From: Succinivibrio dextrinosolvens
GTDB taxonomy: Bacteria > Pseudomonadota > Gammaproteobacteria > Enterobacterales > Succinivibrionaceae
NCBI RefSeq assembly: GCF_011065405.1
Contig: NZ_CP047056.1
Coordinates: 3,370,747-3,434,746 of the forward strand
Length of the DNA stretch: 64,000 nt
Direction: 5' to 3'
In this document: piece by piece, positions 3,540 to 32,377 of the stretch
Numbering within the stretch: the first letter of the stretch is position 1
How the letters are laid out: each line of letters begins with the position of its first letter
Made by a program: the position numbers and the translations under genes
Notes under the pieces: model-generated
Seen by the model: the letters and a program-made list of their open reading frames with translations, nothing else
What the model was told of the DNA's origin: nothing
The model's database searches: none

Positions 3540-5318
3540 CTACTGAAGCTTACAGTAAATACAGTCAGGGCCAGCAAAGACCATGGCATAGGCTTTTACA
3601 TTTCTGCCTTTAAATTCCAAAGCAGATTTATAGGCTGTAAGCTCTTCTGCAGCCTTATTTACGAGTCTTTGCAGTGCACTGTCTCTATTCTTATCTCTGG
3701 CTTCTGTTTTAGTCAGATACTTAAGCTCAATTATGTAAATACATTCGTTAATCTTGCCTCTGTTTACGGTTATGACTAAATCTGCATATTTCTCACCTTC
3801 GCCCTTAACCTGTAAAGACTTCTGCATATTTACAATGAAATTACGTCCTTTCATGGTCTCAAGCTTTGCAAATAAAGCAAGATTCAGGGCAATCTCGTTC
3901 ATTTGCAGCAGCACCTGATTGGTCATTATGCTGCTTAGAAATTCTGTACAGGAATCTGCAAAGGATGAGATATCATCCTCAGTTGCTAACAGTGATTCTG
4001 TATTGATTGCTGTAGTTATGAAAGAGGAAGCTTTATTTAACCTCAGATTTATAATGCACTTGCCAAAGAGCTTTGACATGTAACGGTTAGGTATTTTCAG
4101 ACTGAGACCATCTGTTGAAGATCCTTCTTTATCAATGGAAAGGTATCCAAGGTAATAGAGAATAGAGAGAACCTGATCCTGATCGTATGCATTGGCCTTA
4201 TTAAGATTGATGTTCTCTGAAAGATGATCAACATAGAAGGTATCACCATGAAGATAGGTATCAATGATTTCATCAACAATATCTTTATGGGTTAAAGAGA
4301 AAATCTGCTCAAGCTTGTATCCGTCCTGATCGCAGGCAGGATCGAGATAATCCTCGGGATTTAGAAACACTCCTTTCTCACGGACCATATCCAAATAGTA
4401 AAGACACATGGAGGAATTGTATACAGTCTTATCTGCCTCAGCAGAAAAACAGTAGCCGTCATAGACTGGTTTCATCCTGCTGATAATTTCTTTTGGTGGT
4501 ACTCCTAACTTCTCTACATCCACAAGCTTAGGAATGAGGATCACAAGTTCATCCTCTGTAAAGCCTGCGTATTCATTAAAACAGGCTCTGTCTGTAACAT
4601 TACGGGCGATATTAAATCCTGAAGTTAGGGAATCAAGAGATACAGATGAAACTCCGGTGATAAAGGTCTTGGCGATAGTATCAGTGGTTAGGGATTTTAT
4701 TGTGGCATAAAAAGTCTTAAGGAAACCATCTTTACTGGTTATATTCAGGAATAACTCTAAATCTTTAGATAAAATCTCATTGGCAAAATTGTCATACTCA
4801 TCAATCATGACATAGAGCTTCTGGCTTTCTGAGTAATCTTTGTAGGCAATTGCAAACTCATTAAATAGTGTTGCAGCATCTGTTTTATCCAGTGCTGAAT
4901 AATCAAACACAAAATCAGGATATCTTAGAATAAAATCTTTGATCCCACGGGAAACAACCACAAAAAAACTGGTTAAGAGCTTATTGAGATTACCTGTTGA
5001 AACTGCGGAAAAATCAAAATTGATTACATGATAGCTGTTGTGTGTTGGGAGATTTAGATCATAAATCTTAGTACCAGAAAACAGCTCTTCGTATCTGTCC
5101 TGATAGGAAATGTCGTAAAAACACTTGAGCATCTGCACAAAGGTAGACTTGCCAAAACGACGGGGACGCAGAAGTACAGGGTATAGACTCATACTGTCAT
5201 CGTCCAGATATTTAATCATCAGACTTTTATCAACAAAGGCCTTGTTCTTTTGTCTGAATAAATCAAACGTAACCTGTCCATAAGGATTATTAAGTAGTGT
5301 AACTGTAGTCTCTGACAT
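3540..5318 (-). CDS. AAA-ATPase-like / PD-(D/E)XK nuclease family protein (copy 1)
   Basis: This 592-residue protein starts at MSETTV, behind AAGGA eight bases upstream. The frame continues 45 codons further upstream without a supporting ribosome site. The N-terminal half matches the AAA-ATPase-like family often found fused to DUF1703-type nucleases: FVDKS, P-loop RPRRFGKST near residues 52-60, Walker B LYVMIDEYDNFANE, and the sensor-like segment TFITGVSSVSLDSLTSGFNI. The C-terminus carries a PD-(D/E)XK-like core, YADLVITV followed by IYIIELKYL (D, then E-x-K), and ends in a short cysteine-containing tail (DCIYCKLQ) like the tandem copies at 10865-16209. The family's function is unknown; the architecture suggests an ATP-regulated nuclease. 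The gene stands alone and is divergent from the first porin gene. It belongs to the same subgroup as the 10865-16209 trio but is clearly diverged from them. Confidence 0.85.
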   Translation of the reverse strand: MSETTVTLLNNPYGQVTFDLFRQKNKAFVDKSLMIKYLDDDSMSLYPVLLRPRRFGKSTFVQMLKCFYDISYQDRYEELFSGTKIYDLNLPTHNSYHVINFDFSAVSTGNLNKLLTSFFVVVSRGIKDFILRYPDFVFDYSALDKTDAATLFNEFAIAYKDYSESQKLYVMIDEYDNFANEILSKDLELFLNITSKDGFLKTFYATIKSLTTDTIAKTFITGVSSVSLDSLTSGFNIARNVTDRACFNEYAGFTEDELVILIPKLVDVEKLGVPPKEIISRMKPVYDGYCFSAEADKTVYNSSMCLYYLDMVREKGVFLNPEDYLDPACDQDGYKLEQIFSLTHKDIVDEIIDTYLHGDTFYVDHLSENINLNKANAYDQDQVLSILYYLGYLSIDKEGSSTDGLSLKIPNRYMSKLFGKCIINLRLNKASSFITTAINTESLLATEDDISSFADSCTEFLSSIMTNQVLLQMNEIALNLALFAKLETMKGRNFIVNMQKSLQVKGEGEKYADLVITVNRGKINECIYIIELKYLTKTEARDKNRDSALQRLVNKAAEELTAYKSALEFKGRNVKAYAMVFAGPDCIYCKLQ

Positions 5319-5930: not shown

Positions 5931-7025
5931 ATGAAAAAGTCATTATTAGCTTTAGCTGTTGTTGCTGTAGCAGCATCAGCAAATGCAGCTACCGTTTATG
6001 ATAAGGACGGTACCTCATTAACTCTAGATGGCCGTGTTCAGGCTGTTTTCTACAACGGAAACCACGGTAAAGCTGGTGAGAACGATTCTTCAATCAATAA
6101 TTCTGGTCGTTTCGGAATCGGCGGTAAGACTCAGTTAGCTGACTGGGTATCAGGTATCGGTTACACCCAGTGGGATGTTTCAGATGGTGATAACCGCAAT
6201 AACTTTGATGTTCGTGACCAGTGGGTAGGTGCTGATTTTGGCGAGTTTGGTGTTTTACAGGCTGGTCGTTTCCTTGATTCATCATACTATGCAGAAAACG
6301 TAACTGATCATTATGAAGATGCTGCTGGTACTGTTCAGGGTGTCTATAATGGTGAGCGTCGTGGTGGTCAGATGATGTATACCTATGATAACTATGGTTT
6401 CCATGGTCAGTTAGGTGTTCAGACTGCTCAGGATAACGCAAGAATCAACAATGACAATAAATATGCTGTTGATTCTGGCTTTAATGGCGCTTTAGGCTAT
6501 ACTTTTGAGAATGTTGTATTTGGTCCTTTATCATTCCGTACCGGCTATAGCTACTTAAAGGGACAGAAAGATGGTGATGTAGGATATGTAACAGCACGTA
6601 ATGTTACAACTGCACAAGGTAAAGTTTTTGATAAATTTAAACATGCAAACTTTGGTGTTGCATGGGGTAATCTAGACTCTGGCTTCTACACTGCTGCCTT
6701 ATATGAGTATGCAAAGATGGATTTCCAGACAGATGAATCTTGGAAGAGAAAGGGTGTCGAGATTGCTGTTGGCTATGCATTTGACAATGGTGTATCTGCA
6801 TTAGTAGGTTATGAATTTGCAAACGATACATCAACAGCTGGCAATAAAGCTAAGATAAAGAGAATTCCTGTATTTGTTAACTATAAAGCAAATGAAAACT
6901 TCAATGTTTGGACTGAGTTTGGCTTTAATGCAGGATCTGATCATCAAGATGACTTCCCTGCAACAAGCTATAGCAAGAAGATAGATCATACTGTATTTAG
7001 CGTAGGTGCTCGTTACACCTTCTAA
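5931..7025 (+). CDS. Outer-membrane porin (porin 1)
   Basis: This 364-residue porin starts with a typical signal peptide, MKKSLLALAVVAVAASANA, with cleavage expected before ATVYDKDG. The mature part has the alternating pattern of a 16-strand general porin: GRVQAVFYNG, a GKTQLADWVSGIGYTQWD segment, an eyelet-like acidic and basic stretch (YEDAAGTVQG, NGERRGGQ), and a C-terminal strand ending HTVFSVGARYTF, the terminal aromatic that the BAM complex recognises. It would form passive diffusion channels in the outer membrane. It is the first of three tandem paralogues with the same signal peptide and C-terminus but different loops. Its own terminator follows 30 bases after the stop, so it is probably a single-gene unit. 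The ribosome site AAGGA lies eight bases before the ATG. Confidence 0.93.
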   Translation: MKKSLLALAVVAVAASANAATVYDKDGTSLTLDGRVQAVFYNGNHGKAGENDSSINNSGRFGIGGKTQLADWVSGIGYTQWDVSDGDNRNNFDVRDQWVGADFGEFGVLQAGRFLDSSYYAENVTDHYEDAAGTVQGVYNGERRGGQMMYTYDNYGFHGQLGVQTAQDNARINNDNKYAVDSGFNGALGYTFENVVFGPLSFRTGYSYLKGQKDGDVGYVTARNVTTAQGKVFDKFKHANFGVAWGNLDSGFYTAALYEYAKMDFQTDESWKRKGVEIAVGYAFDNGVSALVGYEFANDTSTAGNKAKIKRIPVFVNYKANENFNVWTEFGFNAGSDHQDDFPATSYSKKIDHTVFSVGARYTF

Positions 7026-7055
7026 TTCAATAGATTAGAATTATTAAACTAAATG

Positions 7056-7089
7056 ATCCCTGCAGAGAAATCTGTGGGGATTTTTTTTT
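7056..7089 (+). terminator. Rho-independent terminator of porin 1
   Basis: An 11-bp stem (ATCCCTGCAGA with TCTGTGGGGAT, two wobble pairs) closes a GAAA tetraloop and is followed by nine T residues. Confidence 0.88.
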
Positions 7090-7412
7090 ATGCAATCTCC
7101 CTAAAAAAATGAATATTTATAATCATATCTTAATTATATAAATTCAAAAATAATTTAAATTTATTGTACATACTCACAGAAATGATTGTATATGTTCTAA
7201 TTTCTTATTATTTGCTTAGAAAATCAGATAATTAGATTAAAAAATTGCTAGTAATATCAATTTTTAAAAAAAAACAAAGGGTTAGAAATCTGTAATATTT
7301 TATTTTTGTGATGAACTCGAAATATTTATTTAAAATATGAGCGATAATCTGCGTGTAATCGTTTTATACGGTTGCAGTCTTTGTTATCAGATAATATTTA
7401 GGGATTTATATT
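7090..7412. promoter_or_regulatory. AT-rich region upstream of porin 2
   Basis: These 323 non-coding bases carry GTGATGAACTCG (7308-7319), the inverse of a 12-mer upstream of porin 1, and the dyad-like half-sites TGTAATCG and CGGTTGCA at 7354-7376. The last bases before the ATG (GGATTTATATT) are identical to those before porin 1, so the translation start region is duplicated along with the gene. Confidence 0.45.
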
Positions 7413-8543: not shown

Positions 8544-8576
8544 TCATCAGTTAATCTGATTTAACTAATCATTACA

Positions 8577-10864: not shown

Positions 10865-12622
10865 ATGGCTTTAAAAAAGATTATTGTAGGAATGTGTACT
10901 TTATCTGAGATTAGAGATAAAGATGGAATTTATATAGATAAAACTCGTTTTATTGATTATCTTGAGAATGATGCAGGAACCAGTGTTCCTGTATTCCTGC
11001 GTCCTAGACGTTTTGGCAAGAGTCTTACTGCAAGCATGCTGCACAGCTACTATGATATTTCCGAAAAAGATCAGTTTGAAAAGAATTTTAAAGGTACCTG
11101 GATTTACGATCACAGAACACCTCTAGCCAGTTCATACTATGTTATACATTTTGATTTTTCAAATGTTGCATCTGATTATTCTAGGATGAATGACAGTTTT
11201 TTAAGATCTGTCTCCTACAGCATAAATTCTTTTTCTTCAAAATACCCAGAACGTGGATTAACTAAAGATCAGCGCGATATCTCTTTATTTTCTTCTGCTC
11301 CGGACCTTTTGGGAGCATTTCTGGATAACTTTTCAAACCGAGCTGAAGCAGGTGAATATCTGTATGTCATCATTGATGAATATGATCACTTTGCCAATGA
11401 GATTCTGACCAGAGATAAAGAAGCCTTCAAAGATATAACCTCAACCGCAGAAGGCCATGAAGGTCTGATAAAACAGTTTTATGCACAGCTTAAAGCCTAT
11501 TATCGCGGTAATCGTCCAGGAGGAATCGACAGATTCTTTATTACAGGTGTTTCATCTGTTTCTTTAGATTCTGTAACCTCAGGCTTCAATATCGCAACCA
11601 ACATCAGTTTAAAGTCTGACTTTCATGAAATGATTGGTTTTACTCATGCAGAGTTATCTGAGGTTATAGATGAGACTGTAGATTTTTCTCTGCTTTCTGA
11701 TATTACCAAAGAGCAGGTAATGCAGATTATGGAGGAAAACTTTGATGGGTATGCTTTTGAGAAGAAAGCAAAAGAAAAAATGTTTAATTCCAATCTCTGT
11801 CTTGCCTATCTTGAGAGTGTGATTTCAGAAAGGGAACTTCCAAATCCGAATGAGATATCTCTGAATGATGATGTCGGCAAGCTAAGAGGTATGCTGAATC
11901 TATGTGAGAATAATGTTAGAGAAGAAATAGTTCAGGCGATGTTCAATAAAGAGCCAATTGACTTAAAACTCCCTGACAAGATGAATCTGAACAGTACCAA
12001 TTATTTTGATAAAGCTCAGATGGTATCTCTGCTTTATCATTTAGGCTATCTGACAATTGATACAGAAACTTCCCAGAAAAAGGGTATAACCAGCTTTGTT
12101 ATTCCAAATAGAGTCTATGAGAATCTGTTCTTAGACTACTGCCGTATGTCTATGGGCTACAGTGCAGATGCTTACAAAGACTTATCGCCAATGTTTGAAG
12201 AGTCTGCTGATATAACACCTCTAATACAGATAATAACAGAACAGATAGAGACCAAGCTTAATCCACAGTCTCTAGGAAAATTTACAGAGATGGCACTGCA
12301 GCTGATATGTGACAGTATCATCAACAACAGCATTTATAGAAAGCTAAGTTCCTACACTGAGTTTAACACCGGTAAAGGCTTTGCAGATATCTTTGTAAAG
12401 AATACCTATCCTAACGGACACTATTTTCTTTTAGAGCTTAAATACCTGCATAAAAAGGATGACAGTAAGTCTTCGATAGACGCAAAACTTGCCGAGGCCA
12501 AAGAGGAAATCGAAAGGTACCGACAGGGGACCATTCTCAAAGAAAAGGTCGGTAATCATCCTCTGGACTGCTATGCAATCATATTTGTTGGCTCAGAGTG
12601 CAGATTGTGCCAGAAGATATAG
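10865..12622 (+). CDS. AAA-ATPase-like / PD-(D/E)XK nuclease family protein (copy 2, tandem A)
   Basis: This 585-residue protein is the first of three tandem paralogues of equal length. The N-terminal AAA-ATPase-like domain has IYIDKTRFI, P-loop RPRRFGKSL at residues 46-54, Walker B YLYVIIDEYDHFANE near 165-179, and RFFITGVSSVSLDSVTSGFNI near 223-243. The C-terminal nuclease-like core has GKGFADIF (D508) then FLLELKYL (E524, K526), and the protein closes with ECRLCQKI. I recognise the family but not a function; an ATP-gated DNA nuclease or a domesticated mobile-element protein are both possible. A promoter-like TATAAT is upstream, and GGATTCGTA precedes the ATG. Thirty-six bases separate it from the next copy, so the three are probably one transcript. 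Confidence 0.87.
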   Translation: MALKKIIVGMCTLSEIRDKDGIYIDKTRFIDYLENDAGTSVPVFLRPRRFGKSLTASMLHSYYDISEKDQFEKNFKGTWIYDHRTPLASSYYVIHFDFSNVASDYSRMNDSFLRSVSYSINSFSSKYPERGLTKDQRDISLFSSAPDLLGAFLDNFSNRAEAGEYLYVIIDEYDHFANEILTRDKEAFKDITSTAEGHEGLIKQFYAQLKAYYRGNRPGGIDRFFITGVSSVSLDSVTSGFNIATNISLKSDFHEMIGFTHAELSEVIDETVDFSLLSDITKEQVMQIMEENFDGYAFEKKAKEKMFNSNLCLAYLESVISERELPNPNEISLNDDVGKLRGMLNLCENNVREEIVQAMFNKEPIDLKLPDKMNLNSTNYFDKAQMVSLLYHLGYLTIDTETSQKKGITSFVIPNRVYENLFLDYCRMSMGYSADAYKDLSPMFEESADITPLIQIITEQIETKLNPQSLGKFTEMALQLICDSIINNSIYRKLSSYTEFNTGKGFADIFVKNTYPNGHYFLLELKYLHKKDDSKSSIDAKLAEAKEEIERYRQGTILKEKVGNHPLDCYAIIFVGSECRLCQKI

Positions 12623-14451: not shown

Positions 14452-16209
14452 ATGTCAAAGAAAAAAATCATAGTGGGAATGTGTACTTTATCTGAGATTA
14501 GAGAAAGTAACTGTATTTTTATTGATAAGACCAGATTTATTGAATATCTTGAAAACAGTGCAGGAACAAAGGTTCCTGTATTCCTGCGTCCTAGACGTTT
14601 TGGCAAGAGTCTTACTGCAAGCATGCTGCACAGCTACTATGATATTTCCGAAAAAGATCAGTTTGAAAAGAATTTTAAAGGTACCTGGATTTACGATCAC
14701 AGAACTCCTCTAGCCAGTTCATACTATGTTATACATTTTGATTTTTCAAATGTTGCATCCGATCCTGCTCAGATGAATAGAAGTTTCATAATCTCAGTTG
14801 CAGCTAGCATTTCCAACTTTAGTGATAAATATCCAGAACAGGGACTTTCTAAAGAGGAACTTGAACCATCTCTCTACAAAAATGCATCAGAACTTCTGAC
14901 AAGATTTCTGACCAATTTTTCAAGAAACGTAGAAGATGGTAGGTATCTTTATGTCATCATTGATGAATACGATCATTTTGCCAATGAGATTCTAACAAGA
15001 GATAAGGAAGCCTTTAAAGATCTTACTTCAACAGCTGAAGGACATGAAGGTCTGATAAAACAGTTTTATGCACAGCTTAAAGCCTATTATCGTGGCAATC
15101 GTCCAGGAGGCATCGACAGATTCTTTATTACTGGTGTTTCATCAGTTTCTTTAGATTCTGTAACTTCTGGTTTTAATATAGCGATCAACATCAGTTCAAA
15201 GCCTGTTTTTCATGAAATGATAGGCTTTACCCATAATGAGTTATCAGAACTTATTGATGAGACTGTAGATTTTTCACAGTTTTCAGATATTAACAAAGAG
15301 CAGATAATGCAGATTATGGATGAAAATTTTGACGGTTTTGCCTTTTCTGAAGATGCCAATGAGTCAATGTTTAATTCCAATCTCTGTCTTGCTTATCTTG
15401 ATGATCTTATTTCACGAAAAAAACTTCGTGATCCAAATCAGATTTCACTGAATGATGATGTCGGCAAGTTAAGGGGAATGCTGAATCTCTGCGAGGATAA
15501 TGTTAGAGAAGAAATTGTTCAGGCAATGTTCAATAAAGAGCCAATTGACTTAAAACTTCCTGACAAGATGAATCTGAACAGTACCAGTTATTTTGATAAA
15601 GCTCAGATGGTATCTCTGCTTTATCATTTAGGCTATCTGACAATTGATACAGAAAGTTCCCAGAAAAAAGGGATCACCAGCTTTGTTATTCCAAATAGAG
15701 TCTATGAAAAGCTGTTCTTAGACTACTGCCGTATGTCTATGGGCTACAGTGCAGACGCTTACAAAGACTTATCGCCTATGTTTGAAGAGTCTGCTGATAT
15801 AACACCTCTTATAGAGATAATCACAGAACAGATAGAGACCAAGCTTAATCCTCAGTCTCTGGGTAAATTTACAGAGATGGCACTGCAGCTGATATGTGAC
15901 AGTATCATTAACAACAGCATTTACAGAAAGCTAAGTTCCTACACTGAGTTTAACACCGGTAAAGGCTTTACAGATATCTTTGTAAAGAATACCTATCCTA
16001 ACGGACATTATTTTCTTTTAGAGCTTAAATACCTGCATAAAAAGGATGACAGTAAGTCTTCTATAGACGCAAAACTTGCCGAGGCCAAAGAGGAAATTGA
16101 AAGATACCGACAGGGGACCATTCTCCAAGAAAAGGTTGGAAATCATCCTCTGGACTGCTATGCAATCATATTTGTTGGCTCAGAGTGCAGATTGTGCCAG
16201 AAGATCTAA
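14452..16209 (+). CDS. AAA-ATPase-like / PD-(D/E)XK nuclease family protein (copy 4, tandem C)
   Basis: This is the third 585-residue tandem paralogue. Its first 244 residues equal those of tandem B. Its own segment spans about 245-345 (KPVFHEMIGFTHNELSELID, SEDANESMFN). Its C-terminal third is closer to tandem A, sharing SQKKGITSFVIPNRVYE, INNSIYRKLSSYTEF and KKDDSKSS. It is therefore a B/A mosaic with a private middle. One substitution touches the nuclease core surroundings (GKGFTDIF instead of GKGFADIF), while the D, E and K are kept. The IS200/IS605 element begins about 40 bases after its stop. Confidence 0.87.
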   Translation: MSKKKIIVGMCTLSEIRESNCIFIDKTRFIEYLENSAGTKVPVFLRPRRFGKSLTASMLHSYYDISEKDQFEKNFKGTWIYDHRTPLASSYYVIHFDFSNVASDPAQMNRSFIISVAASISNFSDKYPEQGLSKEELEPSLYKNASELLTRFLTNFSRNVEDGRYLYVIIDEYDHFANEILTRDKEAFKDLTSTAEGHEGLIKQFYAQLKAYYRGNRPGGIDRFFITGVSSVSLDSVTSGFNIAINISSKPVFHEMIGFTHNELSELIDETVDFSQFSDINKEQIMQIMDENFDGFAFSEDANESMFNSNLCLAYLDDLISRKKLRDPNQISLNDDVGKLRGMLNLCEDNVREEIVQAMFNKEPIDLKLPDKMNLNSTSYFDKAQMVSLLYHLGYLTIDTESSQKKGITSFVIPNRVYEKLFLDYCRMSMGYSADAYKDLSPMFEESADITPLIEIITEQIETKLNPQSLGKFTEMALQLICDSIINNSIYRKLSSYTEFNTGKGFTDIFVKNTYPNGHYFLLELKYLHKKDDSKSSIDAKLAEAKEEIERYRQGTILQEKVGNHPLDCYAIIFVGSECRLCQKI

Positions 16210-18118: not shown

Positions 18119-18383
18119 TATTACTTGATAAAAACTGGCAGTACAATTCTTTGTCATAGCTATCGAGTTTCACTAGTCCAACATCTGCCATTTCGTAAGA
18201 GCTCTCTTCTCTTGCGAGATGACTATAGCGACTCTTATAAGTTTTTTGTCAGATATTCCTTCACCGTAGTGTTTTTCTTTAAGCTGTTTCAGACCTGAAT
18301 CTAAAGCCTGATCTTCGGTTACTGTTGTTTTTTCTGTATTGTAACTGCGTTTAAATTCAATAACCAGTTTTGTTTTTCTAGTA

Positions 18384-19673
18384 CATTATTCGCTAATTTC
18401 GTTTACTAATCTTTATCTGCGAAAGCCCCCTGTATATCTTCTAACTTCCATTGCCATCTATACACTACAGGGGTTTCATTAGTTTCCTTTAGCCATGATT
18501 CTATATGAGTCTTCAACTCTTCTATAGAATTTACCCTTAGATGTTTTAGACATTGTTTGGCACATTTACTAAAGAAACTCTCAATCAGATTTAACCATGA
18601 TGCATGCTTAGGAGTAAAAGTAAATTCAAATCTTTCTGGCTTTGATGCAAGAAATTCCATTACATCTCTACACCTATGTACAGAATGATTATCCAAGATA
18701 ATGCTTATCTTTAAATCCTTATCATATTTATCATCGACTGTTTTTAAGAAGTCAATAAAATCTGCACTTGTATGACTTTTTCTGACCAACCCTATAACTT
18801 CACCACTCATAAGATCAATCCCAGCTAAAAGAGACAGCGTTCCGTATCTTTTATATTCATAATCTCGACCTACGCATCTTGCTCCAACTGCCGGATTGGG
18901 TCTTAAATCTGGGGCTATATTGCCAATTGCTTGAATTCCTGGTTTTTCATCATAAGATATAACAACCTCTCCAGACAGTTTTGAGGCACTTACCCCATCT
19001 TCAGTCTGCTCTCTTGTCATCTGCAAAATCCAGGCAACTCTCTTATACAACAATAAGACCTTCTTTGCTTTTTCTTTAAAATCAGGATCTTTTCTCTCAA
19101 GATAATATTTGATCTTATGTGGCTTTATATCGTTGCTATTTAGGATCTCCCAAACAGTTGACTCCTGTACATTAGCAAGACATTCGTGACCTTCATTCAT
19201 GCAATGCTTATGTATATAATTGCACAAACTTGTTATTGTCCATAACTGAGAATGTGGACCATCTTTATAATCCTGGGGTAAATGGCATGCAAGCTGGATG
19301 ATCCATGTCCTTGCAGCAACATCAATTACCGGAGGTCTTCCAGAACGAGCTAAATCAGAGAGAGCTGCATCAATATCAAATACAGTCCATTTCTTTAAGA
19401 CCTTACATATTGTCGGTATTGAAACACCAACCTCTTTGGATATAGTTTCATTAGATTTACCTTGAGAAGCAAGAAGTATAATTTTTGCTCTTTGAACTTT
19501 TCTTACTTCTTCTGTTCTGGAGTTTGAGAGCTCTTTGATTTTTATTAACTCTTCCTCAGATAATGTTTTGAGAAACTTTTTAGGTCGTGCCATAAGAATA
19601 CCCCTTATATTTACAGTATAGAGGTATTATATCACGATAGTTAAAAATTAGTTAACGAATTTAGCGAATGTTA
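18384..19673 (-). mobile_element. IS630-family insertion sequence, 1290 bp, intact
   Basis: The ends carry inverted repeats: ATTCGCTAATTTCGTTTAC at the left (from 18388) and, on the other strand, ATTCGCTAAATTCGTTAAC at the right, with 21 of 23 inner positions matching. The flanks are TA dinucleotides (18382-18383 and 19674-19675), the family's target duplication, inside CTAG-TA-CTAG. It contains one full transposase gene. Confidence 0.88.
18406..19593 (-). CDS. IS630-family transposase
   Basis: This 395-residue DDE transposase has an N-terminal helix-turn-helix region (SNETISKEVGVSIPTICKVLKKW) and a DDE_3-type catalytic core: D in VISYDEKPGIQ near 213, D in IILDNHSVHRC near 296, and E in HASWLNLIESFFSK near 336. 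Neither stop nor frameshift interrupts it, and both terminal repeats are present, so the element may still be mobile. It integrates at TA. Start MARPKKFLKTL: the ATG lies about 80 bases inside the right terminal repeat. Confidence 0.93.
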   Translation of the reverse strand: MARPKKFLKTLSEEELIKIKELSNSRTEEVRKVQRAKIILLASQGKSNETISKEVGVSIPTICKVLKKWTVFDIDAALSDLARSGRPPVIDVAARTWIIQLACHLPQDYKDGPHSQLWTITSLCNYIHKHCMNEGHECLANVQESTVWEILNSNDIKPHKIKYYLERKDPDFKEKAKKVLLLYKRVAWILQMTREQTEDGVSASKLSGEVVISYDEKPGIQAIGNIAPDLRPNPAVGARCVGRDYEYKRYGTLSLLAGIDLMSGEVIGLVRKSHTSADFIDFLKTVDDKYDKDLKISIILDNHSVHRCRDVMEFLASKPERFEFTFTPKHASWLNLIESFFSKCAKQCLKHLRVNSIEELKTHIESWLKETNETPVVYRWQWKLEDIQGAFADKD

Positions 19674-21240
19674 TACTAGTTACCAGCTGCATATCTGCAA
19701 AACCAAAGGCATTAACGGTTTCTCTGCTTTTGTAAATTACACTGTCAGGAATGGAGATATAGATAAGATTGCGAATATCAACTTCTCGGTTAAAGATTCC
19801 TGAGTCAGGAGTTATGCTTTCTATAATAATCTTGTTGAATACAGTCTTCAAGCTCTCAATATCTGCTGCATCTACATACTCAGGAATAGCAAGCATACAG
19901 CGATTTGTCTTGGAAGTTAATTTAAGATTATATAAATCTCTTTTGAGATTAAATATAGATTCTTCAACTTCCTCATTTGGGTAGGCAAGAAGGACATCTG
20001 CTTCAGAGTTATATTGCAAAGTATAATAACCTGTCTGTTGCAGGAGCAGATTTATCGGAATATGTGTTGCCTCTGATTTTGCTTTCAATTCAGAAATAGT
20101 GACATATAATTCTTCACTTTCTGATAGTTCAGAGAACTGTTTTGCATGACCAGCATCTTTTAGATAATTGATTAGAAGTGTAGGTGTCCCGGCACTGCTC
20201 TGATACCAGTAATTTTCAAAACCATTATGAGGTTTACTTAAAAACGATAAAACTGACCAGGGATTGTAAACAGACTCATTTGCATGAACTGAGAATCTGT
20301 TTCCGTTATAGCGTAATTTTAATCGCTCATAAACTTCATCTTTTGACATCTCTAAAACAGAGGCAGCGTTTTCAACATAACTGTCAAAGTAGTTGTGCAG
20401 CTCAGATTCGGTTATACCTAAAAGAGAAGAGTAATCATCATCAAGAGTGATTTCATTAAGATTGTTAAATGTTGAGAACAGACTTACATGTGCAATTCTG
20501 GTAATACCGGTGATGAAGATAAAGCGACAGCTATCTTTGTAGTCTTTTAAAGTGTTAAAAAATGCCCCCAGATAGCTTACTATCTGTTTATTTAGTTCAG
20601 GCTCATCTAGTGTATGGGTTAGAGGAGCATCGTATTCATCAATTAGAATAACCACAGATGATCCTGTAAGCTGTTTTAAACACTCTTCTAACAGAGAATT
20701 TGGTCCAGTTGCAGCTGTTCTATTTAGCTTTTCAGGATGAGGCAGAATGTCTGAGAATTCACGCACTATGCTCTGACAGAAATCCTCATTAAAATCTGCA
20801 ATGGAAGATACTCTGTAATTAGCAAAGGAAAACTTTGCCACCGGATAGGTTTTGTTTTCTGTCCAGAGTTTTTAATACTAAGTCCTTTAAAATCCTCAAG
20901 TCCTTTGGAGAAAAGCGAATCAAATGTGGATAGCAGCAGTGATTTTCCAAATCTGCTGGGACGTGTAAGATAAACAGGGGATCTTTGGCGAGCAATTTTA
21001 TAAATAAGCAGTGTTTTATCAACATAAATCTGATTGAGTGCTCTTAGCTCAGAAAATCTGGTTGTAGATAAAGGAATTCTGTCAAAATCTTCGTCTTGTA
21101 AAATAGTTGGTCCCATAGAAACTCCCAGTCTGTACATATAATCATACCTTATTCTTGTGAAATGCAGGAAATAATATGGACCGGATAGAGTTTTATCGAT
21201 ATTGAATAAAGTTTAGCAGATTATATATGAGTGAACAGGA

Positions 21241-24811: not shown

Positions 24812-26596
24812 ATGGATGGTAAAAAACTGAGTATTGGCACAGAAGATTTTGATAAACTCAGATTATCAGATGCTGTCTATATTGACAAAACATCATATCT
24901 AATTGAATTATACGGTGAGCATGTTCATTTCAACGGTATTAGTTATGTTGATGATGTTCTTCTGTTTGCCCGTCCCCGCCGTTTTGGTAAGACTCTGACC
25001 ATGAGCATGATTAAGAATTTCTTTGAACTTAATTATGCCGATCCTGAAGATAAATCCAAGCCTAAGCAACTATTCCATAATCTTGCTATATCCAGGAATA
25101 AAGCCTTCTGTGAAAAATACATGGGGCAGTATCCTGTCATTAGTCTCTCCTTAAAGGGAATAGAAGGAAGATCATACGAAAAGGCTCTTCAAAAATTCCT
25201 CCAGAAGGTAGGTGATTTATATCGCACTTATAGACCTGTTTTTGAAGGCAGTGACAAGCAGTATAAGGAGGATATAAAATTCTTTAATGAGGTTCTGGAT
25301 TTATCAAACTCAACAAATCTGGTTTTATCTGATAATGATGTTATAACTAATGTTGAAAACATAATCATCACCAGCCTTTACAAGCTTACAGCCATGCTTA
25401 ACACTGAGTTCGGGAAGAGAACCATTGTTATTGTCGATGAATATGATGTACCTCTACAGAAAGCTTCTGTTGGCGGATATTATGATGAGATGATTGATGT
25501 TGTTAGAGGCTTATTTGAAAAGGTCTTCAAAACTAACAGTTACCTTGAAAAGGGATTCGTTACAGGCTGTCTGCGTATCAGCCATGAGAGTATCTTTACC
25601 GGCATCAACAATTTCTCAATCTACACTGTAAATGATGAGGCCTACAATACTTTTATCGGTTTTACCCGAGAAGAGACAGTTGAACTTTTAAATAAACAGA
25701 AATTAAGTTCAAAAGAAGAAATTGTCATGAAATGGTATAACGGCTATAACTTTGCCGGAGCGAAGATGCTTTGTCCATGGAGTGTCTTAAAGTTCTGTGA
25801 GAGTGCAGGAAAATCTGAAAATCTCAATGAGCTTATACCTGATAACTACTGGATCAATACCTCCGGTAATGACATTATTGATATCTGTCTTAAACACCCG
25901 GATGCAAAAGATTCTATGCGTCTGCAGAATCTGTTAAACGGCAATTCTGAACTTATTCAAGCCTCTGAATTTACCTCATATCCAGAGATTAATACCGGTA
26001 CAGATTTTGAGACCATGATGAGTATGATGCTGCATACCGGCTATCTGACTGTTATAAAGACACATCCTGACAGAAGTCTTGATGTTAAAATTCCTAACGA
26101 GGAAGTTTTAGACAGCTTCAGAGAACGAATTAAGGTTGTATTCAGTAAGAAGAATGCTCCATGGTTTGAGAAGGCAGAAGCACTGAAGAGTGCTTTATTT
26201 AATAATGATAAGGATGAGGTTCAGCGTCTGATTAACGAACTTCTTTTAAACTTTGTCAGCGTAAGAGATTCTTCTTATGAGAACTTTTACCACGGATTCT
26301 TGTTAGGTGTTCTCTCAATAGTTACCCAAAATGCTTCGGAAATCTCATCTAATAAAGAAAATGGTAAGGGGTTCTCGGATTTAATATTAAGATCTGGTTT
26401 TAAGGCAGTTATACTGGAGTTCAAGAAGATGCCTTCTGATTCAGTTCCAAAGGTTCTGTTGAATACATGTTCTGAGGCACTAGAACAGATAGAAGAGAAC
26501 AAATATGATTACAACCTGCAGCAGGATGGTTATACACAAATCAGAAAGTTTGGCATAACTTTTTATGGTAAAGAGTGCGTTGTTCTTAATGTATAG
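24812..26596 (+). CDS. AAA-ATPase-like / PD-(D/E)XK nuclease family protein (copy 6)
   Basis: This 594-residue protein belongs to a second subtype shared with 26680 and 30599. Features: AVYIDKTSYLIELYGE, P-loop RPRRFGKTLTMSMI near residues 53-66, Walker B TIVIVDEYDVPLQKA near 207-221, GFVTGCLRISHESIFTGINNF, a KWYNGYNFAGAKMLCPWSV block, and a C-terminal nuclease-like core GKGFSDLIL followed by AVILEFKKMP. From about nucleotide 25521 to the end it appears identical to the next gene, while residues about 115-225, between the two ATP-binding motifs, differ strongly. It has its own promoter and an AAAGGA ribosome site. Function unknown. Confidence 0.87.
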   Translation: MDGKKLSIGTEDFDKLRLSDAVYIDKTSYLIELYGEHVHFNGISYVDDVLLFARPRRFGKTLTMSMIKNFFELNYADPEDKSKPKQLFHNLAISRNKAFCEKYMGQYPVISLSLKGIEGRSYEKALQKFLQKVGDLYRTYRPVFEGSDKQYKEDIKFFNEVLDLSNSTNLVLSDNDVITNVENIIITSLYKLTAMLNTEFGKRTIVIVDEYDVPLQKASVGGYYDEMIDVVRGLFEKVFKTNSYLEKGFVTGCLRISHESIFTGINNFSIYTVNDEAYNTFIGFTREETVELLNKQKLSSKEEIVMKWYNGYNFAGAKMLCPWSVLKFCESAGKSENLNELIPDNYWINTSGNDIIDICLKHPDAKDSMRLQNLLNGNSELIQASEFTSYPEINTGTDFETMMSMMLHTGYLTVIKTHPDRSLDVKIPNEEVLDSFRERIKVVFSKKNAPWFEKAEALKSALFNNDKDEVQRLINELLLNFVSVRDSSYENFYHGFLLGVLSIVTQNASEISSNKENGKGFSDLILRSGFKAVILEFKKMPSDSVPKVLLNTCSEALEQIEENKYDYNLQQDGYTQIRKFGITFYGKECVVLNV

Positions 26597-26648: not shown

Positions 26649-26679
26649 ATAGACATGTTCAAGTAAGGATCTTGTTGAT

Positions 26680-28458
26680 ATGGATATTAAAAAACAGAGT
26701 GTTGGTACAGAGGACTTTGAGAAAAACATACTATCTAAAGCGGTATACATAGATAAAACATCATATCTAACAGAATTATACGGTGAGCATGTTCATTCCA
26801 ACGGCATGAGTTATGTTGATGATGTTCTTCTGTTTACCCGTCCCCGCCGTTTTGGTAAGACTCTGACCATGAGCATGATTAAGAATTTCTTTGAACTTAA
26901 TTATGCTGATCCTGAAGATAAATCCAAGCCTAAGCAACTATTCCATAACCTTGCTATATCCAGGAATAAAGCCTTCTGTGAAAAATACATGGGGCAATTT
27001 CCTGTTATAAGTATCTCTTTAAAAGATGTTGAAGGAGAGACCGTTGAGGGGGCATTAAATGAGCTTTTAGGCAAGATCTACGAATTATATGATGGTTTCA
27101 GATCACTTTTAGACTGTAATGCGTTAGCTCCTGAGGATCATGATGCATATCAGTATGTTCTGTCTTTTACAAAGCAAAGTAGCCGATTATGGGATGAAAA
27201 CTATTTTATAAATGCAACAGATGTTATTAAATCAAGTCTTTATAATTTGACCTCATATCTGTACAAGGCCTATGGAAGAAAAACCATTGTTATTGTCGAC
27301 GAATATGATGTACCTCTCCAGAAGGCTACTGTTCATGGATATTATCAAAAGCTCCTCGGCATTATTCGGGGAATGTTCAGTAAGGTCTTCAAAACTAACA
27401 GTTACCTTGAAAAGGGATTCGTTACAGGCTGTCTGCGTATCAGCCATGAGAGTATCTTTACCGGCATCAACAATTTCTCAATCTACACTGTAAATGATGA
27501 GGCCTACAATACTTTTATCGGTTTTACCCGAGAAGAGACAGTTGAACTTTTAAATAAACAGAAATTAAGTTCAAAAGAAGAAATTGTCATGAAATGGTAT
27601 AACGGCTATAACTTTGCCGGAGCGAAGATGCTTTGTCCATGGAGTGTCTTAAAGTTCTGTGAGAGTGCAGGAAAATCTGAAAATCTCAATGAGCTTATAC
27701 CTGATAACTACTGGATCAATACCTCCGGTAATGACATTATTGATATCTGTCTTAAACACCCGGATGCAAAAGATTCTATGCGTCTGCAGAATCTGTTAAA
27801 CGGCAATTCTGAACTTATTCAAGCCTCTGAATTTACCTCATATCCAGAGATTAATACCGGTACAGATTTTGAGACCATGATGAGTATGATGCTGCATACC
27901 GGCTATCTGACTGTTATAAAGACACATCCTGACAGAAGTCTTGATGTTAAAATTCCTAACGAGGAAGTTTTAGACAGCTTCAGAGAACGAATTAAGGTTG
28001 TATTCAGTAAGAAGAATGCTCCATGGTTTGAGAAGGCAGAAGCACTGAAGAGTGCTTTATTTAATAATGATAAGGATGAGGTTCAGCGTCTGATTAACGA
28101 ACTTCTTTTAAACTTTGTCAGCGTAAGAGATTCTTCTTATGAGAACTTTTACCACGGATTCTTGTTAGGTGTTCTCTCAATAGTTACCCAAAATGCTTCG
28201 GAAATCTCATCTAATAAAGAAAATGGTAAGGGGTTCTCGGATTTAATATTAAGATCTGGTTTTAAGGCAGTTATACTGGAGTTCAAGAAGATGCCTTCTG
28301 ATTCAGTTCCAAAGGTTCTGTTGAATACATGTTCTGAGGCACTAGAACAGATAGAAGAGAACAAATATGATTACAACCTGCAGCAGGATGGTTATACACA
28401 AATCAGAAAGTTTGGCATAACTTTTTATGGTAAAGAGTGCGTTGTACTTAATGCCTAA
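26680..28458 (+). CDS. AAA-ATPase-like / PD-(D/E)XK nuclease family protein (copy 7)
   Basis: This 592-residue partner of the preceding gene lies 83 bases downstream with its own copy of the promoter. The N-terminus (DIKKQSVGTEDFEKNILSKA) differs from copy 6. The P-loop block (RPRRFGKTLTMSMIKNFF through FCEKYMGQ) is nearly the same, residues about 115-235 are different (EGALNELLGKIYELYDGFRS), and the remaining 354 residues are the same except the very last (A instead of V). Catalytic-type residues are as in copy 6: IVDEYDVPLQK, GKGFSDLIL, VILEFKK. A weak terminator hairpin follows. Such a pattern indicates recent gene conversion or unequal crossing-over. Confidence 0.87.
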   Translation: MDIKKQSVGTEDFEKNILSKAVYIDKTSYLTELYGEHVHSNGMSYVDDVLLFTRPRRFGKTLTMSMIKNFFELNYADPEDKSKPKQLFHNLAISRNKAFCEKYMGQFPVISISLKDVEGETVEGALNELLGKIYELYDGFRSLLDCNALAPEDHDAYQYVLSFTKQSSRLWDENYFINATDVIKSSLYNLTSYLYKAYGRKTIVIVDEYDVPLQKATVHGYYQKLLGIIRGMFSKVFKTNSYLEKGFVTGCLRISHESIFTGINNFSIYTVNDEAYNTFIGFTREETVELLNKQKLSSKEEIVMKWYNGYNFAGAKMLCPWSVLKFCESAGKSENLNELIPDNYWINTSGNDIIDICLKHPDAKDSMRLQNLLNGNSELIQASEFTSYPEINTGTDFETMMSMMLHTGYLTVIKTHPDRSLDVKIPNEEVLDSFRERIKVVFSKKNAPWFEKAEALKSALFNNDKDEVQRLINELLLNFVSVRDSSYENFYHGFLLGVLSIVTQNASEISSNKENGKGFSDLILRSGFKAVILEFKKMPSDSVPKVLLNTCSEALEQIEENKYDYNLQQDGYTQIRKFGITFYGKECVVLNA

Positions 28459-28471
28459 TCTTATGTAAACG

Positions 28472-28496
28472 AAAAGCTCTATCAGTGGAGTTTTTT
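28472..28496 (+). terminator. Probable terminator after copy 7
   Basis: AAAGCTC pairs with GAGTTTT (one wobble) around an 8-base loop, followed by further T residues. Confidence 0.55.
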
Positions 28497-28565
28497 CTGC
28501 TGTTTTACTATCAGTTTAAGCATATATAGTAATCTTTCCTAAGATTAGACTTCACATGGTCTTGA

Positions 28566-28600
28566 GCTGTCCCCAATGGAGACAGCTTAAAGAAGCTGTC
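28566..28600. repeat. Overlapping alternative hairpins between convergent genes
   Basis: The heptamers AGCTGTC, GACAGCT and AGCTGTC follow one another, so the middle one can pair with either neighbour. GACAGCTT/AAGCTGTC is the stronger, with an 8-bp stem and 4-base loop. There is no T-tract. It lies just past the end of the minus-strand regulator gene. Confidence 0.45.
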
Positions 28601-28608
28601 ATCTTGAT

Positions 28609-30186
28609 TTAACTAATTGAAAACCTGTACTTGCCTTTTCCTGCTCCTTCAACAGAAACTGTAACTTTCAGTTCCTGTTCCATTCTCTTCAGATAAGAGG
28701 TTGCAGTGACTTCTGAACAGCCTAGGATCTTGACCACACGTGTATTTCCAAAAACCTCTGTACCAATATTTTCATATAACTTCAGAATGTTATTTTTTAT
28801 ATTGCTTGAATAGTTTGAATCCATGATTTTCTGTTTCAGAACTTTTGTATCAGCTTCTATTTTAAGATTTTTATTCAGATCGGTCTTGTTTTTGGTTTTG
28901 TAGTATTCTTCGTTAACAGGAATAACCACAGATGTGACATTATCATTGGAGTCAAAGGTCTTATAGTAAAGATCTGGAGAGCCGTTTTCTCTCATTGACC
29001 TTTTTGCTTCACCAATGCCTGTACCGAAGGATTCAATTATTCCTAAATCTTTGAACATATCTCTTATTTCGGGATTTTCAGTATCTCTCTCGTTAAAGAA
29101 TGATCTCTCATTTAAATCACTGATGCGAATAGGAGGTAGGGGTTTATTGTAATTTACTATATTTATTTGTTTTTCTGACACATATACCTGGATAGGTTTT
29201 CCATTCTCGTAATTGTTATGAACAATTGCATTTGCTAGAAGCTCTTCTAGTGCAATAAAGGTAAAATTCTCTATTTTTCTGTTCTCAGCGTTTCCTTCTT
29301 CTCTTAGTACCAGTTCGTTAAGAAAATTTGTGTTTATATAATCTAAAACTGCGTAGTACTGTTTCCAGATGGCTCCCTTAAAAATCTTATATTCCATCTT
29401 TCTTTTATTTCCGAACATATCTACAATAAGCTCAGTGTAGGCATATGGAATATGTTTATCCGGATGTTCTGAAAACATTAGAAGGGCAAAGTTTTTTACA
29501 CGGTTTCCTGCAGGATCATTTTTATCAATTAAATTCAGGGAATTGGCAAGATCTTTCTTTTCCATGCCTTCACTGATCTGTCTGGTGCTGGTTTTAGAAA
29601 AGTATCCCTTGATTAAATCCATGTCTAAATCATCAAGAGTAGCTCCTGAACTTACAATTGAGCTGAAATGAAAGTTAGAAAATTTGCGTAAAAGATCATA
29701 TTCCTCATCAACTCTAGCAAGACGTGTATCCGCTTCAATTCTCACATATCTGCCGGGCTTTAGGTGAATCCTTTTGTCCTTTTCGGCTTTTTCAGTTACC
29801 ATAAATGGTCCACCAATCTGGCGTAGGACAATTAAAATCAGATAGCTGATTCCATCAAGTTCGTTAGATAAGACTTCAAACGAAACATTTGGATAAAGAA
29901 ATGAGCGCAAGGAATTAATGGTATTTTTGCATTTCTCCAGCTGGCCTTTGTAAATTCCTTTTATAGGCAATACTGGTACAGCCTTATTTGCTTCATTATT
30001 CTCTTCTTCTACGCCAATAAAAATATATTGAATATCGTTGTTGTAGTAATTATTTCCATAAGCACAGATTGTTTTCAGTATTTTGTCCAGCTGTTGTTCA
30101 GAGGCTTTGTATTCTACGTAAGAACATTCTGCGGTTTTATTTTTTAGGATCTCGTTTGCTTGTTTTTTTATTTGTACGTAATCCAT
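28609..30186 (-). CDS. AlbA_2 / HATPase_c_4 type putative transcriptional regulator
   Basis: This 525-residue protein starts at MDYVQIKKQANEIL, behind AGAGG eight bases upstream; a longer frame (seven codons) has no ribosome site. Residues about 10-160 match the AlbA_2 (Schlafen-like, formerly AAA_4) domain, with SYVEYKAS...ICAYGNNYYN and YIFIGVEEE. The second half has the ATP-binding segment ALEELLANAIVHNNYENGKPIQVYV...INIVNYNKPLPP and FGTGIGEAKRSM found in these proteins. A winged-helix-like C-terminus (NTRVVKILGCSEVTATSYLKRMEQEL) would bind DNA. Members are usually annotated as ATP-binding or DNA-binding transcriptional regulators of unknown target. Its upstream region is a 21-bp repeat array, an obvious candidate for its own binding site. 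Confidence 0.83.
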   Translation of the reverse strand: MDYVQIKKQANEILKNKTAECSYVEYKASEQQLDKILKTICAYGNNYYNNDIQYIFIGVEEENNEANKAVPVLPIKGIYKGQLEKCKNTINSLRSFLYPNVSFEVLSNELDGISYLILIVLRQIGGPFMVTEKAEKDKRIHLKPGRYVRIEADTRLARVDEEYDLLRKFSNFHFSSIVSSGATLDDLDMDLIKGYFSKTSTRQISEGMEKKDLANSLNLIDKNDPAGNRVKNFALLMFSEHPDKHIPYAYTELIVDMFGNKRKMEYKIFKGAIWKQYYAVLDYINTNFLNELVLREEGNAENRKIENFTFIALEELLANAIVHNNYENGKPIQVYVSEKQINIVNYNKPLPPIRISDLNERSFFNERDTENPEIRDMFKDLGIIESFGTGIGEAKRSMRENGSPDLYYKTFDSNDNVTSVVIPVNEEYYKTKNKTDLNKNLKIEADTKVLKQKIMDSNYSSNIKNNILKLYENIGTEVFGNTRVVKILGCSEVTATSYLKRMEQELKVTVSVEGAGKGKYRFSIS

Positions 30187-30200
30187 AATTTTTACCTCTG

Positions 30201-30485
30201 AATCCAAAGTTTTTTGCTATCAATCCAAAGAAATTGTATACCAAACCAAAGAAATTGTATACCAATCCAAAGTTTTTTTGTTTCTAAAACAGAAATTTTT
30301 TGTATCAAACCAAAGTTTTTAGCCTCAAATCCAAAGAAATTGGCTTTCAATCCAAAGTTTTTAGCCTTCAATCCCAAAAAATTGTGGGGCCAAAACAAAG
30401 TTTTTAGCATCCAATCCAAAGAAATTGGTGAGCAAACCAAAGTTTTTAGAATCAAATCCGAAGAAAATTAGTGGTCAATCCAAAG
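30201..30485. repeat. Array of 14 degenerate 21-bp repeats
   Basis: A nonamer of the type AATCCAAAG recurs at 30201, 30222, 30243, 30264, about 30286, 30307, 30328, 30349, 30370, 30392, 30413, 30434, 30455 and 30477, almost always 21 bases apart. What follows it mostly alternates between TTTTTAGC-type and AAATTGG-type, giving a 42-bp higher-order period. The array lies directly upstream of the AlbA_2 regulator gene. Both strands are open in one frame, a by-product of a 21-base (7-codon) period; I do not call a protein. Confidence 0.88.
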
Positions 30486-30598
30486 TATGGGGATGTGTAT
30501 ATTCATGGTATTGTTAAAATATGGTGCAGAATAAGGATAGAAATGAATGCAACATTCTTAACTACAAACCGATTTAGTAGAGATAAAATCTGCTTTGT

Positions 30599-32377
30599 TT
30601 AATTCATGGCGACCACGCATTCTTTTCCTAAAAAGGATATTCCATATTTGATGATCCTGTAATTTTTCTGCTCATAAGGACTGGCGTATTTCTTTAGCTC
30701 AATTTGCTCAAGAGCCCCTTTGCAGATCTCATCAAAACTCTCTCCTTTATAAAGCTTTTTAAACTCTATAATTACCACTTCCTTTTTGGGAGAGTAATCT
30801 AAAATCAGATCTGCATATCCATCACCACTTTCAGTATCTGATTTTATTTCTGTATTTTGATCTATTGTTAAGGCGAGAATGCCGGCTAAAAAGCCATGAT
30901 AATAGTCTTCATAGGCTGTATTTCTTATTGATACAAAGGTTAAAAGCAGTTCATTTATCAGATTCTGAACTTTATCCTTATTTTCTGCAAACAATGCGTT
31001 TTTTAATTCTGCAACTTTTGAATACCACTGAGAATTTCGTTTACTGAAAATAATCTTTGCTTTTTGACTAAAACAGTCTAGCACTTCTTTATTTGGTATT
31101 TTTACCTCGATGCTTCCATCTTCATTAGTCTTAACAACAGTTAAATATCCTGTATAAAGCATCATCCCCATCATAGTATCAAAATCGGTATGAATTGATA
31201 TTTCAGGATAGGTTGTAAAATCAGGCGGTAAAATTATTTCTGTTCCTCCGTCCAGTAGATTCTGCAGCCTTTGAGAATCTATGGCATCAGGATGATTGAT
31301 ACAGATGGAGACAATATCGTTGCTTGAGGTATTATTAAAATAATTACCAGGAGTAAAGGTTAAAGGATTTTCTGAAGAATTTGCCTTATGACAGAATGAT
31401 AAAACACTCCATGGGCAGAGCATTTTTGCTCCTGCAAAGTTGTAGCCGTCATACCACTCTAAAACATCCTTTTCTCTTTCCTGAAGATTTCTTTTTTTCA
31501 GAAGTTCTGTTACTTCCTTATGGGTAAATCCTATAAAATCACGATACAGCTCATCCTGAATGGTATAGAGTGAGAAATTATTGATACCTGTATAGATACT
31601 TTCATGGCTGATTCGTAAGCATCCGGTCACAATTCCCTTTTCAAGGAACTCATTGGTTTTGAATACCTCCTCAAACATTCCTCTAATAATATTCAGCATT
31701 TCCTTATAATAACCGTATACCGCAGCCTTCTGCAGAGGAACATCATATTCATCAACTAGAACAATAACTTTTTTTCTGTAGATACTGTAAAGATAAGAGG
31801 TTAAATCTTTTAATGAGGATTTAACCAGAAGCGTAATGTTGTTTTTTACATCAGGATTACTGAAAGTAATGATTTGTCCATTTTTTGCTAGTTGAACAAT
31901 TTTTGAGAACTTTTCTTTATCTTCAGGTGCAAGACTGCTTTGTTTAAGAAAACTGTACTGTTTATACAGGTCTCCAATGCGGTTAAATAAAGCGGTTAAT
32001 GCTTCAATATAATCTTCACCGAAAACTCCCTTAAGAGAGATACTGATTACAGGATACTCTCCCATGTATTTATCACAGAAATCCTTATCCTGAGAAATTT
32101 CTAAATTTTTGAAGAGTTCTTTTGGTTTTGATTTGTCGGCAGGATTATCGTAATTAAGCTCAAAGAAGTTCTTAATCATACTCATGGTCAGAGTCTTTCC
32201 AAAGCGGCGTGGACGGGTAAAAAGACTCACATAATCCTCATAGGTTTCACCGTTATCATGAACTTTTTCTCCAAATAGCTCTTTTAGATAAGATGTTTTA
32301 TCTATGTAGGGAGCTCCCTTTTTAATAAGGGTTTCAAAATCTTCATAACCAACTGTGAAACGTTCTGACAATTTCAT
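30599..32377 (-). CDS. AAA-ATPase-like / PD-(D/E)XK nuclease family protein (copy 8)
   Basis: This 592-residue protein is of the same subtype as 24812 and 26680 but diverged over its whole length, so it is an older paralogue. Motifs: APYIDKTSYLKELFGE, P-loop RPRRFGKTLTMSMI, Walker B KVIVLVDEYDVPLQKA, GIVTGCLRISHESIYTGINNF, EWYDGYNFAGAKMLCPWSV, and the C-terminal core DGYADLIL followed by VVIIEFKKLY. The start ATG lies seven bases after a weak ribosome site (TAGGAG). It follows the rsx operon on the same strand, about 50 bases after rsxE begins its 3' end, so read-through from rsx is possible. Function unknown. Confidence 0.85.
   Translation of the reverse strand: MKLSERFTVGYEDFETLIKKGAPYIDKTSYLKELFGEKVHDNGETYEDYVSLFTRPRRFGKTLTMSMIKNFFELNYDNPADKSKPKELFKNLEISQDKDFCDKYMGEYPVISISLKGVFGEDYIEALTALFNRIGDLYKQYSFLKQSSLAPEDKEKFSKIVQLAKNGQIITFSNPDVKNNITLLVKSSLKDLTSYLYSIYRKKVIVLVDEYDVPLQKAAVYGYYKEMLNIIRGMFEEVFKTNEFLEKGIVTGCLRISHESIYTGINNFSLYTIQDELYRDFIGFTHKEVTELLKKRNLQEREKDVLEWYDGYNFAGAKMLCPWSVLSFCHKANSSENPLTFTPGNYFNNTSSNDIVSICINHPDAIDSQRLQNLLDGGTEIILPPDFTTYPEISIHTDFDTMMGMMLYTGYLTVVKTNEDGSIEVKIPNKEVLDCFSQKAKIIFSKRNSQWYSKVAELKNALFAENKDKVQNLINELLLTFVSIRNTAYEDYYHGFLAGILALTIDQNTEIKSDTESGDGYADLILDYSPKKEVVIIEFKKLYKGESFDEICKGALEQIELKKYASPYEQKNYRIIKYGISFLGKECVVAMN

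Follow-up and report, generated by a model that had tools for sequence, protein, structure and literature searches.

The window analysed here, 64,000 nucleotides of the Succinivibrio dextrinosolvens chromosome, carries within 29 kb seven intact genes and one broken copy of the DUF1703 family, whose proteins join a predicted P-loop ATPase to a nuclease-like C-terminal part; they are a small part of a family spread over the whole genome. Judged by their sequences, the paralogues exchange segments by recombination, and a helical stretch between the Walker A and Walker B motifs, here called module V, emerges as the main place of difference among them, yet is conserved in same-position copies of a near relative that retain it. 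Our preferred reading, to which we give a probability of roughly 0.4, is that the proteins are intracellular ATP-gated nucleases with V as an exchangeable specificity module, and that their likeliest use is conflict with phages or other mobile DNA.

An expanded family of ATPase-nuclease genes

The Pfam families PF09820 (AAA-ATPase-like) and PF08011 (PDDEXK_9, in the C-terminal part) both scored above the Pfam cut-offs in all seven intact window copies, bearing out the AAA-ATPase-like plus DUF1703-type architecture and the motifs proposed in an initial annotation made from the letters alone. That annotation had counted eight genes in three subtypes. Seven of the eight are intact, and the one at 18173 is not, being interrupted by a frame break and an IS630-like DDE transposase open reading frame (ORF). 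The subtypes number four: g1 (10865, 12659, 14452), g2 (3540), g10 (24812, 26680, 30599) and the broken copy, whose pieces, each scored alone, match g5/g4 best. Copy c1 most likely starts at ATG 5318 rather than TTG 5453, because the other 11 g2 members start there. The window features are as follows.

3540..5318, minus strand: copy c1, group g2, 592 amino acids (aa), AAA-ATPase_like + PDDEXK_9, likely start ATG 5318
10865..12622, plus strand: copy c2, group g1, 585 aa
12659..14416, plus strand: copy c3, group g1, 585 aa; first part equal to c4 save single bases
14452..16209, plus strand: copy c4, group g1, 585 aa; second structure model
18173..21212, minus strand: broken copy c5, g5/g4-like, in pieces 20766-21212, 19648-20871 and 18173-18385
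18406..19593, minus strand: IS630-like DDE transposase ORF, inside broken copy c5
24812..26596, plus strand: copy c6, group g10, 594 aa; first structure model
26680..28458, plus strand: copy c7, group g10, 592 aa
30599..32377, minus strand: copy c8, group g10, 592 aa
14743..14946, plus strand: module V of c4 (residues ~98-165), which follows strand 91-97 and precedes the Walker B strand 166-171
25154..25420, plus strand: module V of c6 (residues ~115-203), helices that follow strand 109-113 and precede the Walker B strand 204-209
27022..27282, plus strand: module V of c7, limits approximate, by analogy with c6

The local expansion that the initial annotation had described is real and was understated: the single-contig genome of 3.47 Mb holds 84 PF09820 matches, all 84 above the family cut-off, at 82 places. 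Open frames of at least 480 aa account for 78 members, among which an arginine-rich Walker A and a D-E-[YW]-D Walker B are present in 76, and the nuclease D...ExK core in 76 by regular expression and in one more by eye; the exceptions are the members at genome positions 276052 (degenerate) and 1621892 (N-terminal part absent). Clustering at 50% identity gave 11 groups, eight of them with at least four members and together comprising 75 copies.

The degenerate paralogue (G000:C1:276052-277677, where G000 is the source genome; L112:6053-7675) has lost the Walker A lysine (RPRGFGLS) and has no recognisable D...ExK core. It is 97% identical at the same position in the relative G016 (L180:6589-8316), and a single open frame of ~575 aa corresponds to it in G001 and G002; possibly, to go by these features, it is an inactive relative retained for another role.

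Mosaic exchange and module V

Within groups, DNA blocks that are 100% identical adjoin blocks of 33–62% identity. Copies c6 and c7 share 23 consecutive 15-codon windows at 100% identity, with a longest exact run of 885 bases, and in six windows between Walker A and Walker B they are only 33–62% identical. The two are alike from the second half of the ATPase onward and unlike in V; such an exchangeable module within the ATPase would offer a direct handle on recognition. Between c3 and c4 the first part is nearly identical, with divergence afterwards. In a Sawyer-type runs test on all polymorphic codons, the observed value exceeded all 300 permutations in eight of eight groups, and on silent codons in seven of eight, with 11 of 300 permutations reaching the observed value in g4. 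As the test permutes columns, the all-codon result can be inflated by uneven constraint along the gene, and silent codons give the cleaner reading.

Mean amino acid identity per 20-column block drops to ~0.23–0.57 before Walker B in g1, g3, g4, g7, g9 and g10, and more mildly in g2 (0.66–0.71) and g6 (0.78–0.83). The 62-codon window with the highest nonsynonymous divergence overlaps V in six of the eight groups, and a second variable block is located before the nuclease. Between paralogues, nonsynonymous divergence in V is 1.4–3.1 times that of the rest, and synonymous divergence outside V amounts to 0.25–0.71 per site. The 75 copies carry 41 V types (80% DNA linkage), and a near-identical V can occur with different C-termini, as in 2588930 and 3374286 (V 0.99, C-terminal part 0.64).

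The coexistence of many paralogues in one cell, with a V that is not basic and nearly constant in length, would also suit V as an insulation surface, by which rings or dimers restrict pairing to self through differing V segments; diversity would then be driven by copy number and not by an outside target. A variable helix does form the dimer interface in Rpn nucleases (PMC10327210; this and the other papers cited here were available as partial text, and statements about them refer to those portions). Copies with near-identical V nevertheless coexist within one genome, and we think insulation decidedly unlikely.

Exchange and retention of V at shared positions

Having a near relative at hand, we compared family copies position by position. 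The nearest relative found was G016, which in a test segment of 2.6 kb is 96% identical to the window; the stretches examined hold 36 of 38 family matches of G016 and 14 of 16 of G002. Flanks allowed 21 family genes to be paired between the source genome and G016, with flank identities mostly of 90–99% and of ~80–83% for two (3381611, a divergent pair, and 3236376). Fifteen of the 21 pairs are 94–100% identical overall (two shortened by contig ends), and six are 75–86% identical. Conserved order with ordinary divergence in all relatives, which the initial annotation had set against active expansion, thus describes the 15 pairs and fails for the six, and copy number varies widely.

V has been replaced in five of the six divergent pairs (lowest windows 33–42%), and in the sixth the second variable block has been replaced. 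The V that G016 carries at position 727998 shares 98.9% identity with that of the adjacent source-genome copy 726016, which would reflect either a cassette move between paralogues or fusion of a tandem pair; the G016 contig ends there. Nineteen of 27 G016 V segments match the source genome at 94% or more, so V types are largely common to both genomes. One slot is held by a g2 copy in G016 and by a g3 copy in the source genome, and the window cluster 24812-32377, with its three intact copies plus a Schlafen-type gene, corresponds in G016 to a single intact copy and a fragment.

The rate of change in V was measured in 14 same-position pairs, the six divergent pairs and the degenerate paralogue being left out of the 21. 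V showed 17 nonsynonymous changes over 2,069 sites and the rest 156.5 over 15,945, a V/rest ratio of 0.84 (interval 0.49–1.34); the ratio of nonsynonymous to synonymous divergence (dN/dS) was 0.22 in V and 0.14 in the rest (Fisher p 0.21). These figures are limited by few changes, by the selection of pairs for retained V and by paralogue synonymous divergence near saturation. A module that is divergent between paralogues and constant within a lineage fits a specificity part rather than a filler.

A serious rival, which we nonetheless consider somewhat unlikely, is that these are ordinary multigene dynamics: the duplicates serve some unrelated nuclease function and recombine owing to their likeness, V tolerates change or escapes homogenisation, and the mosaic is a by-product. 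Recombination among DUF1703 paralogues in Cardinium and Rickettsia has been reported without a known role (PMC6387759), dN/dS is below 1, synonymous divergence outside V about equals that inside in five of eight groups, and the second variable block before the nuclease also speaks for it. Three observations sit poorly with it: i) tolerance predicts faster change of V at the same position, whereas the ratio observed was the 0.84 given above, from few changes and pairs chosen for kept V; ii) the Walker A–Walker B distance is constant in five of eight groups, with a spread of 2 residues in two others and of 7 in the last; and iii) the same place is the most divergent in six groups that share only ~20–40% identity.

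Predicted fold and a possible switch

In AlphaFold models of c6 and c4, with a mean predicted local distance difference test (pLDDT) of 82.8 and 88.0, V forms helices that come after strand 2 and before the Walker B strand. Foldseek against the PDB matched c4 to SSO1545 (1.7e-5), to a chain of a maltose-system regulation entry (8bob, 5.4e-5), which we take to be MalT, to subunits of the origin recognition complex (ORC) and to Avs3 bound to terminase (E 2.6e-4). The nuclease part of c4 matched a chain of a Wolbachia CinA-CinB entry, presumably CinB, over 152 columns (root mean square deviation 4.6, E 6.2e-3, probability 1.00). For c6, BrxC and A. pernix ORC2 were matched, as were NLRC4 and plant NLRs at 1e-3 and weaker; other AAA+ proteins (p97, Vps4, Rix7) are also among the matches. 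A sequence search for solved relatives gave a best hit of only E 0.24, and the viral fold library gave nothing below 1e-3. Taken together, the models and matches support a description of an intact copy as a putative ORC/STAND-like P-loop ATPase with a C-terminal PD-(D/E)XK nuclease of CinB type, which agrees with the AAA+ assignment of the family in PMC1913061.

In our preferred reading the ATPase would act as an off/on switch, V would decide the trigger or partner of each copy, and the switch, once triggered, would release the nuclease to cleave DNA, either invading or the cell's own. The target of V would more likely be a protein than DNA, because V is not basic (net charge −2.4 per 100 aa, −2.6 for the rest); for the same reason an ORC-like role of V in DNA binding is not favoured. 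Duplication, loss and cassette exchange would maintain the diversity of the repertoire.

The resemblance of the nuclease part to the Wolbachia cytoplasmic incompatibility (CI) factor structure, together with the signal peptides predicted in 10 of 25 Cardinium paralogues (PMC6387759), might instead point to secreted effectors against rumen protozoa or rival bacteria, a role that has been proposed for some of the Cardinium paralogues. The N-termini of the intact copies are short and run straight into a conserved [VI]DKT-type segment; inspection of the first 25 residues by eye showed no hydrophobic leader, and secretion is the least probable explanation that we weighed.

Several results weigh against nucleases with an exchangeable specificity module used in conflict. 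The fold matches are remote, with whole-query template-modelling (TM) scores of ~0.2–0.4. PADLOC found no defence-model match for six of seven family proteins scanned and a weak one for the other (LmuA, E 0.0024), and no NCBIfam model matched any of the seven. Among the best 25 of 87 PADLOC families in 116 neighbouring ORFs, none has more than three members, and those three are TnpB-type. In g2 and g6 the most divergent 62-codon window lies outside V. In 54 Clostridia copies there is only a mild dip at V, with another window lower, and the idea that V is hypervariable across the whole family was rejected. Recent positive selection on V was likewise rejected, at dN/dS 0.11–0.25 in close pairs, and synonymous divergence is near saturation, so that the age of V is not comparable with that of the rest. 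Among the options raised by the initial annotation, which also included selection for copy number, a diversity-generating conflict system still fits best, on the mosaic exchange, the divergent module and the 1–84 matches per genus genome; the conflict half of it is presumed. Further-reaching, and on the whole unlikely, would be an NLR-like innate repertoire in single Succinivibrionaceae cells: dozens of ATP-switched nucleases, each recognising its target through a helical cassette set in the ATPase core between Walker A and Walker B, with recombination among chromosomal loci swapping the cassettes.

Arrangement of copies and mobility

Family genes lie within 2.5 kb of each other in 25 neighbouring pairs, where random placement would give 7.7 (maximum 18 in 5,000 draws). 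Seventeen of the 25 are of the same group and strand, which indicates tandem duplication. A 4.6 kb stretch with two genes occurs in duplicate, the pairs 1085628/1087751 and 2586805/2588930 being 89.5% identical. In 67 of 78 copies the 60 bp before the start codon contain a −10-like hexamer, whereas shuffled upstream sequences would yield 31.7; c3 and c4, 36–37 bp behind their neighbours, show none by eye.

Dispersed copies, a nuclease domain and copy-number turnover are also what a selfish or homing element would display, its nuclease aiding spread of its own gene to new sites, and the initial annotation had offered selfish spread as one option. It went unsupported. Two occupied/empty junctions read by eye revealed neither a precise unit, a common target nor a target duplication, and the 17 tandem pairs and the longer duplicated chromosomal piece of 4.6 kb are explained by ordinary duplication; we hold a homing element very improbable. 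Flanking DNA common to copies, besides insertion-sequence copies, is mostly short (~50–130 bp) and locally ~400–650 bp. A mobile unit found no support in these two junctions or in shared flanks ranging from ~50 to 650 bp.

Among the best 25 of 158 Pfam families in the 116 neighbouring ORFs, DDE_Tnp_1 occurs in six, IS605/TnpB in three and IS66 in two; the others match one or two ORFs each, and many are metabolic or flagellar. In PADLOC, two neighbours are Schlafen/Argonaute-associated-like and one is ZorD/DpdE-type helicase-like. A defence-island location is unsupported: no defence family recurs among those listed for the 116 ORFs, which were scored without a control gene set.

Within the window, much of the IS630-like element inside c5 (18378-19647) is 100% identical to another stretch of the genome (L110). 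A Schlafen/AlbA_2 and RecG-C-like ORF (28609-30207, minus strand) lies between family copies, has PADLOC matches to Argonaute-associated models and has no counterpart in the matching G016 stretch. The adjacent ORFs 5931, 7413 and 8783 (5931-9919) are 75–81% alike in DNA; the first two have weak OmpC-porin matches, and the region is only 75–90% alike in G016.

Distribution of the family

Profile searches and copy counts per genome, which the initial annotation had proposed, found the family in 19 of 19 genomes of the genus, with 1 to 84 matches each (median 22); eight of the 19 are less than 90% complete and several draft contigs end within family genes, so that draft counts are lower bounds. 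All 56 Succinivibrionaceae genomes, from 14 of 14 genera, are positive, and 39 of the 56 carry at least 10 matches (at most 45 scored per genome). In a sample of 232 Gammaproteobacteria genomes 12 are positive, including the source genome; the other 11 carry 1–7 matches, and two genomes of the same order in this sample have none. The closest matches of one window copy among named genomes are in S. dextrinosolvens ACV-10 and in rumen Succinatimonas/Succinivibrio bins. Such a distribution suggests that the expansion is old, spans the lineage and has seen high turnover. The family occupies ~4% of the chromosome (82 places, 1.72 kb each assumed), and its presence in all 56 Succinivibrionaceae genomes searched argues for a real role.

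Gut Clostridia and Bacilli bins (L036-L088) contain a related clade, common in the Clostridia bins, many copies having an RPRKFGKT-type Walker A and several bins having copies on more than one contig. Distant relatives occur in 36 of 72,556 plasmid records and 26 of 50,697 phage records, and 42 IMG/VR viral-contig loci (L194-L235) encode distant relatives that may be either phage genes or host flanks.

Comparison with known systems

Avs proteins combine a C-terminal repeat sensor with an N-terminal effector, and Avs3 carries a PD-(D/E)XK nuclease. The family resembles these STAND NTPases in pairing a putative ATPase switch with such a nuclease, in line with the Avs3 match of c4. It departs from them in that its nuclease is C-terminal and reaches the protein end, with no sensor-type second domain beyond it, so that the Avs layout is not found in the family copies; its proteins are 540–610 aa long, whereas the Avs3 chain has 2,028 residues. 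The Rpn (YhgA-like) nucleases share the PD-(D/E)XK fold, copy-number variation between strains and a variable helix (PMC10327210); unlike the present proteins they have no ATPase and belong to another Pfam family, and the PF04754-type domain is absent from the Pfam matches of the seven intact copies.

The Orc1-type initiator-specific motif, required for specific binding, occupies the same interval as V, between Walker A (K72) and Walker B (E154) (PMC9738581). That motif assists DNA binding, whereas V is not basic, is larger and is variable. A review table gives PF09820 for RdrA, PARIS1 and Old-tin (PMC10952713).

The DUF1703 family was described as PF09820 AAA-ATPase_like plus PF08011 PDDEXK_9 (PMC1913061), and the present genes share its two domains, the RPRRFGKS Walker A, the DEYD Walker B and the C-terminal PD-(D/E)XK core. 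The available text of that account deals with domains; the expansion and the variable module come from the present genome. In Cardinium cCpun, 25 DUF1703 paralogues recombine within genes, as in a midge Rickettsia, and most species carry fewer than four copies, with 9.8% carrying at least 10 (PMC6387759). The likeness to our case is a multicopy set recombining within genes; the differences are 82 places here against 25 paralogues there, and an expansion here that spans a whole bacterial family. The portions of the Cardinium account available name no exchangeable module and make no same-position comparison, and both are given here. Among the open-licence papers listed, judged by titles and abstract beginnings, none dealt with the Succinivibrionaceae expansion or with a V module. 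The architecture, expansion and, in Cardinium, paralogue recombination are thus already known; the exchangeable divergent module V and the scale of the expansion are new.

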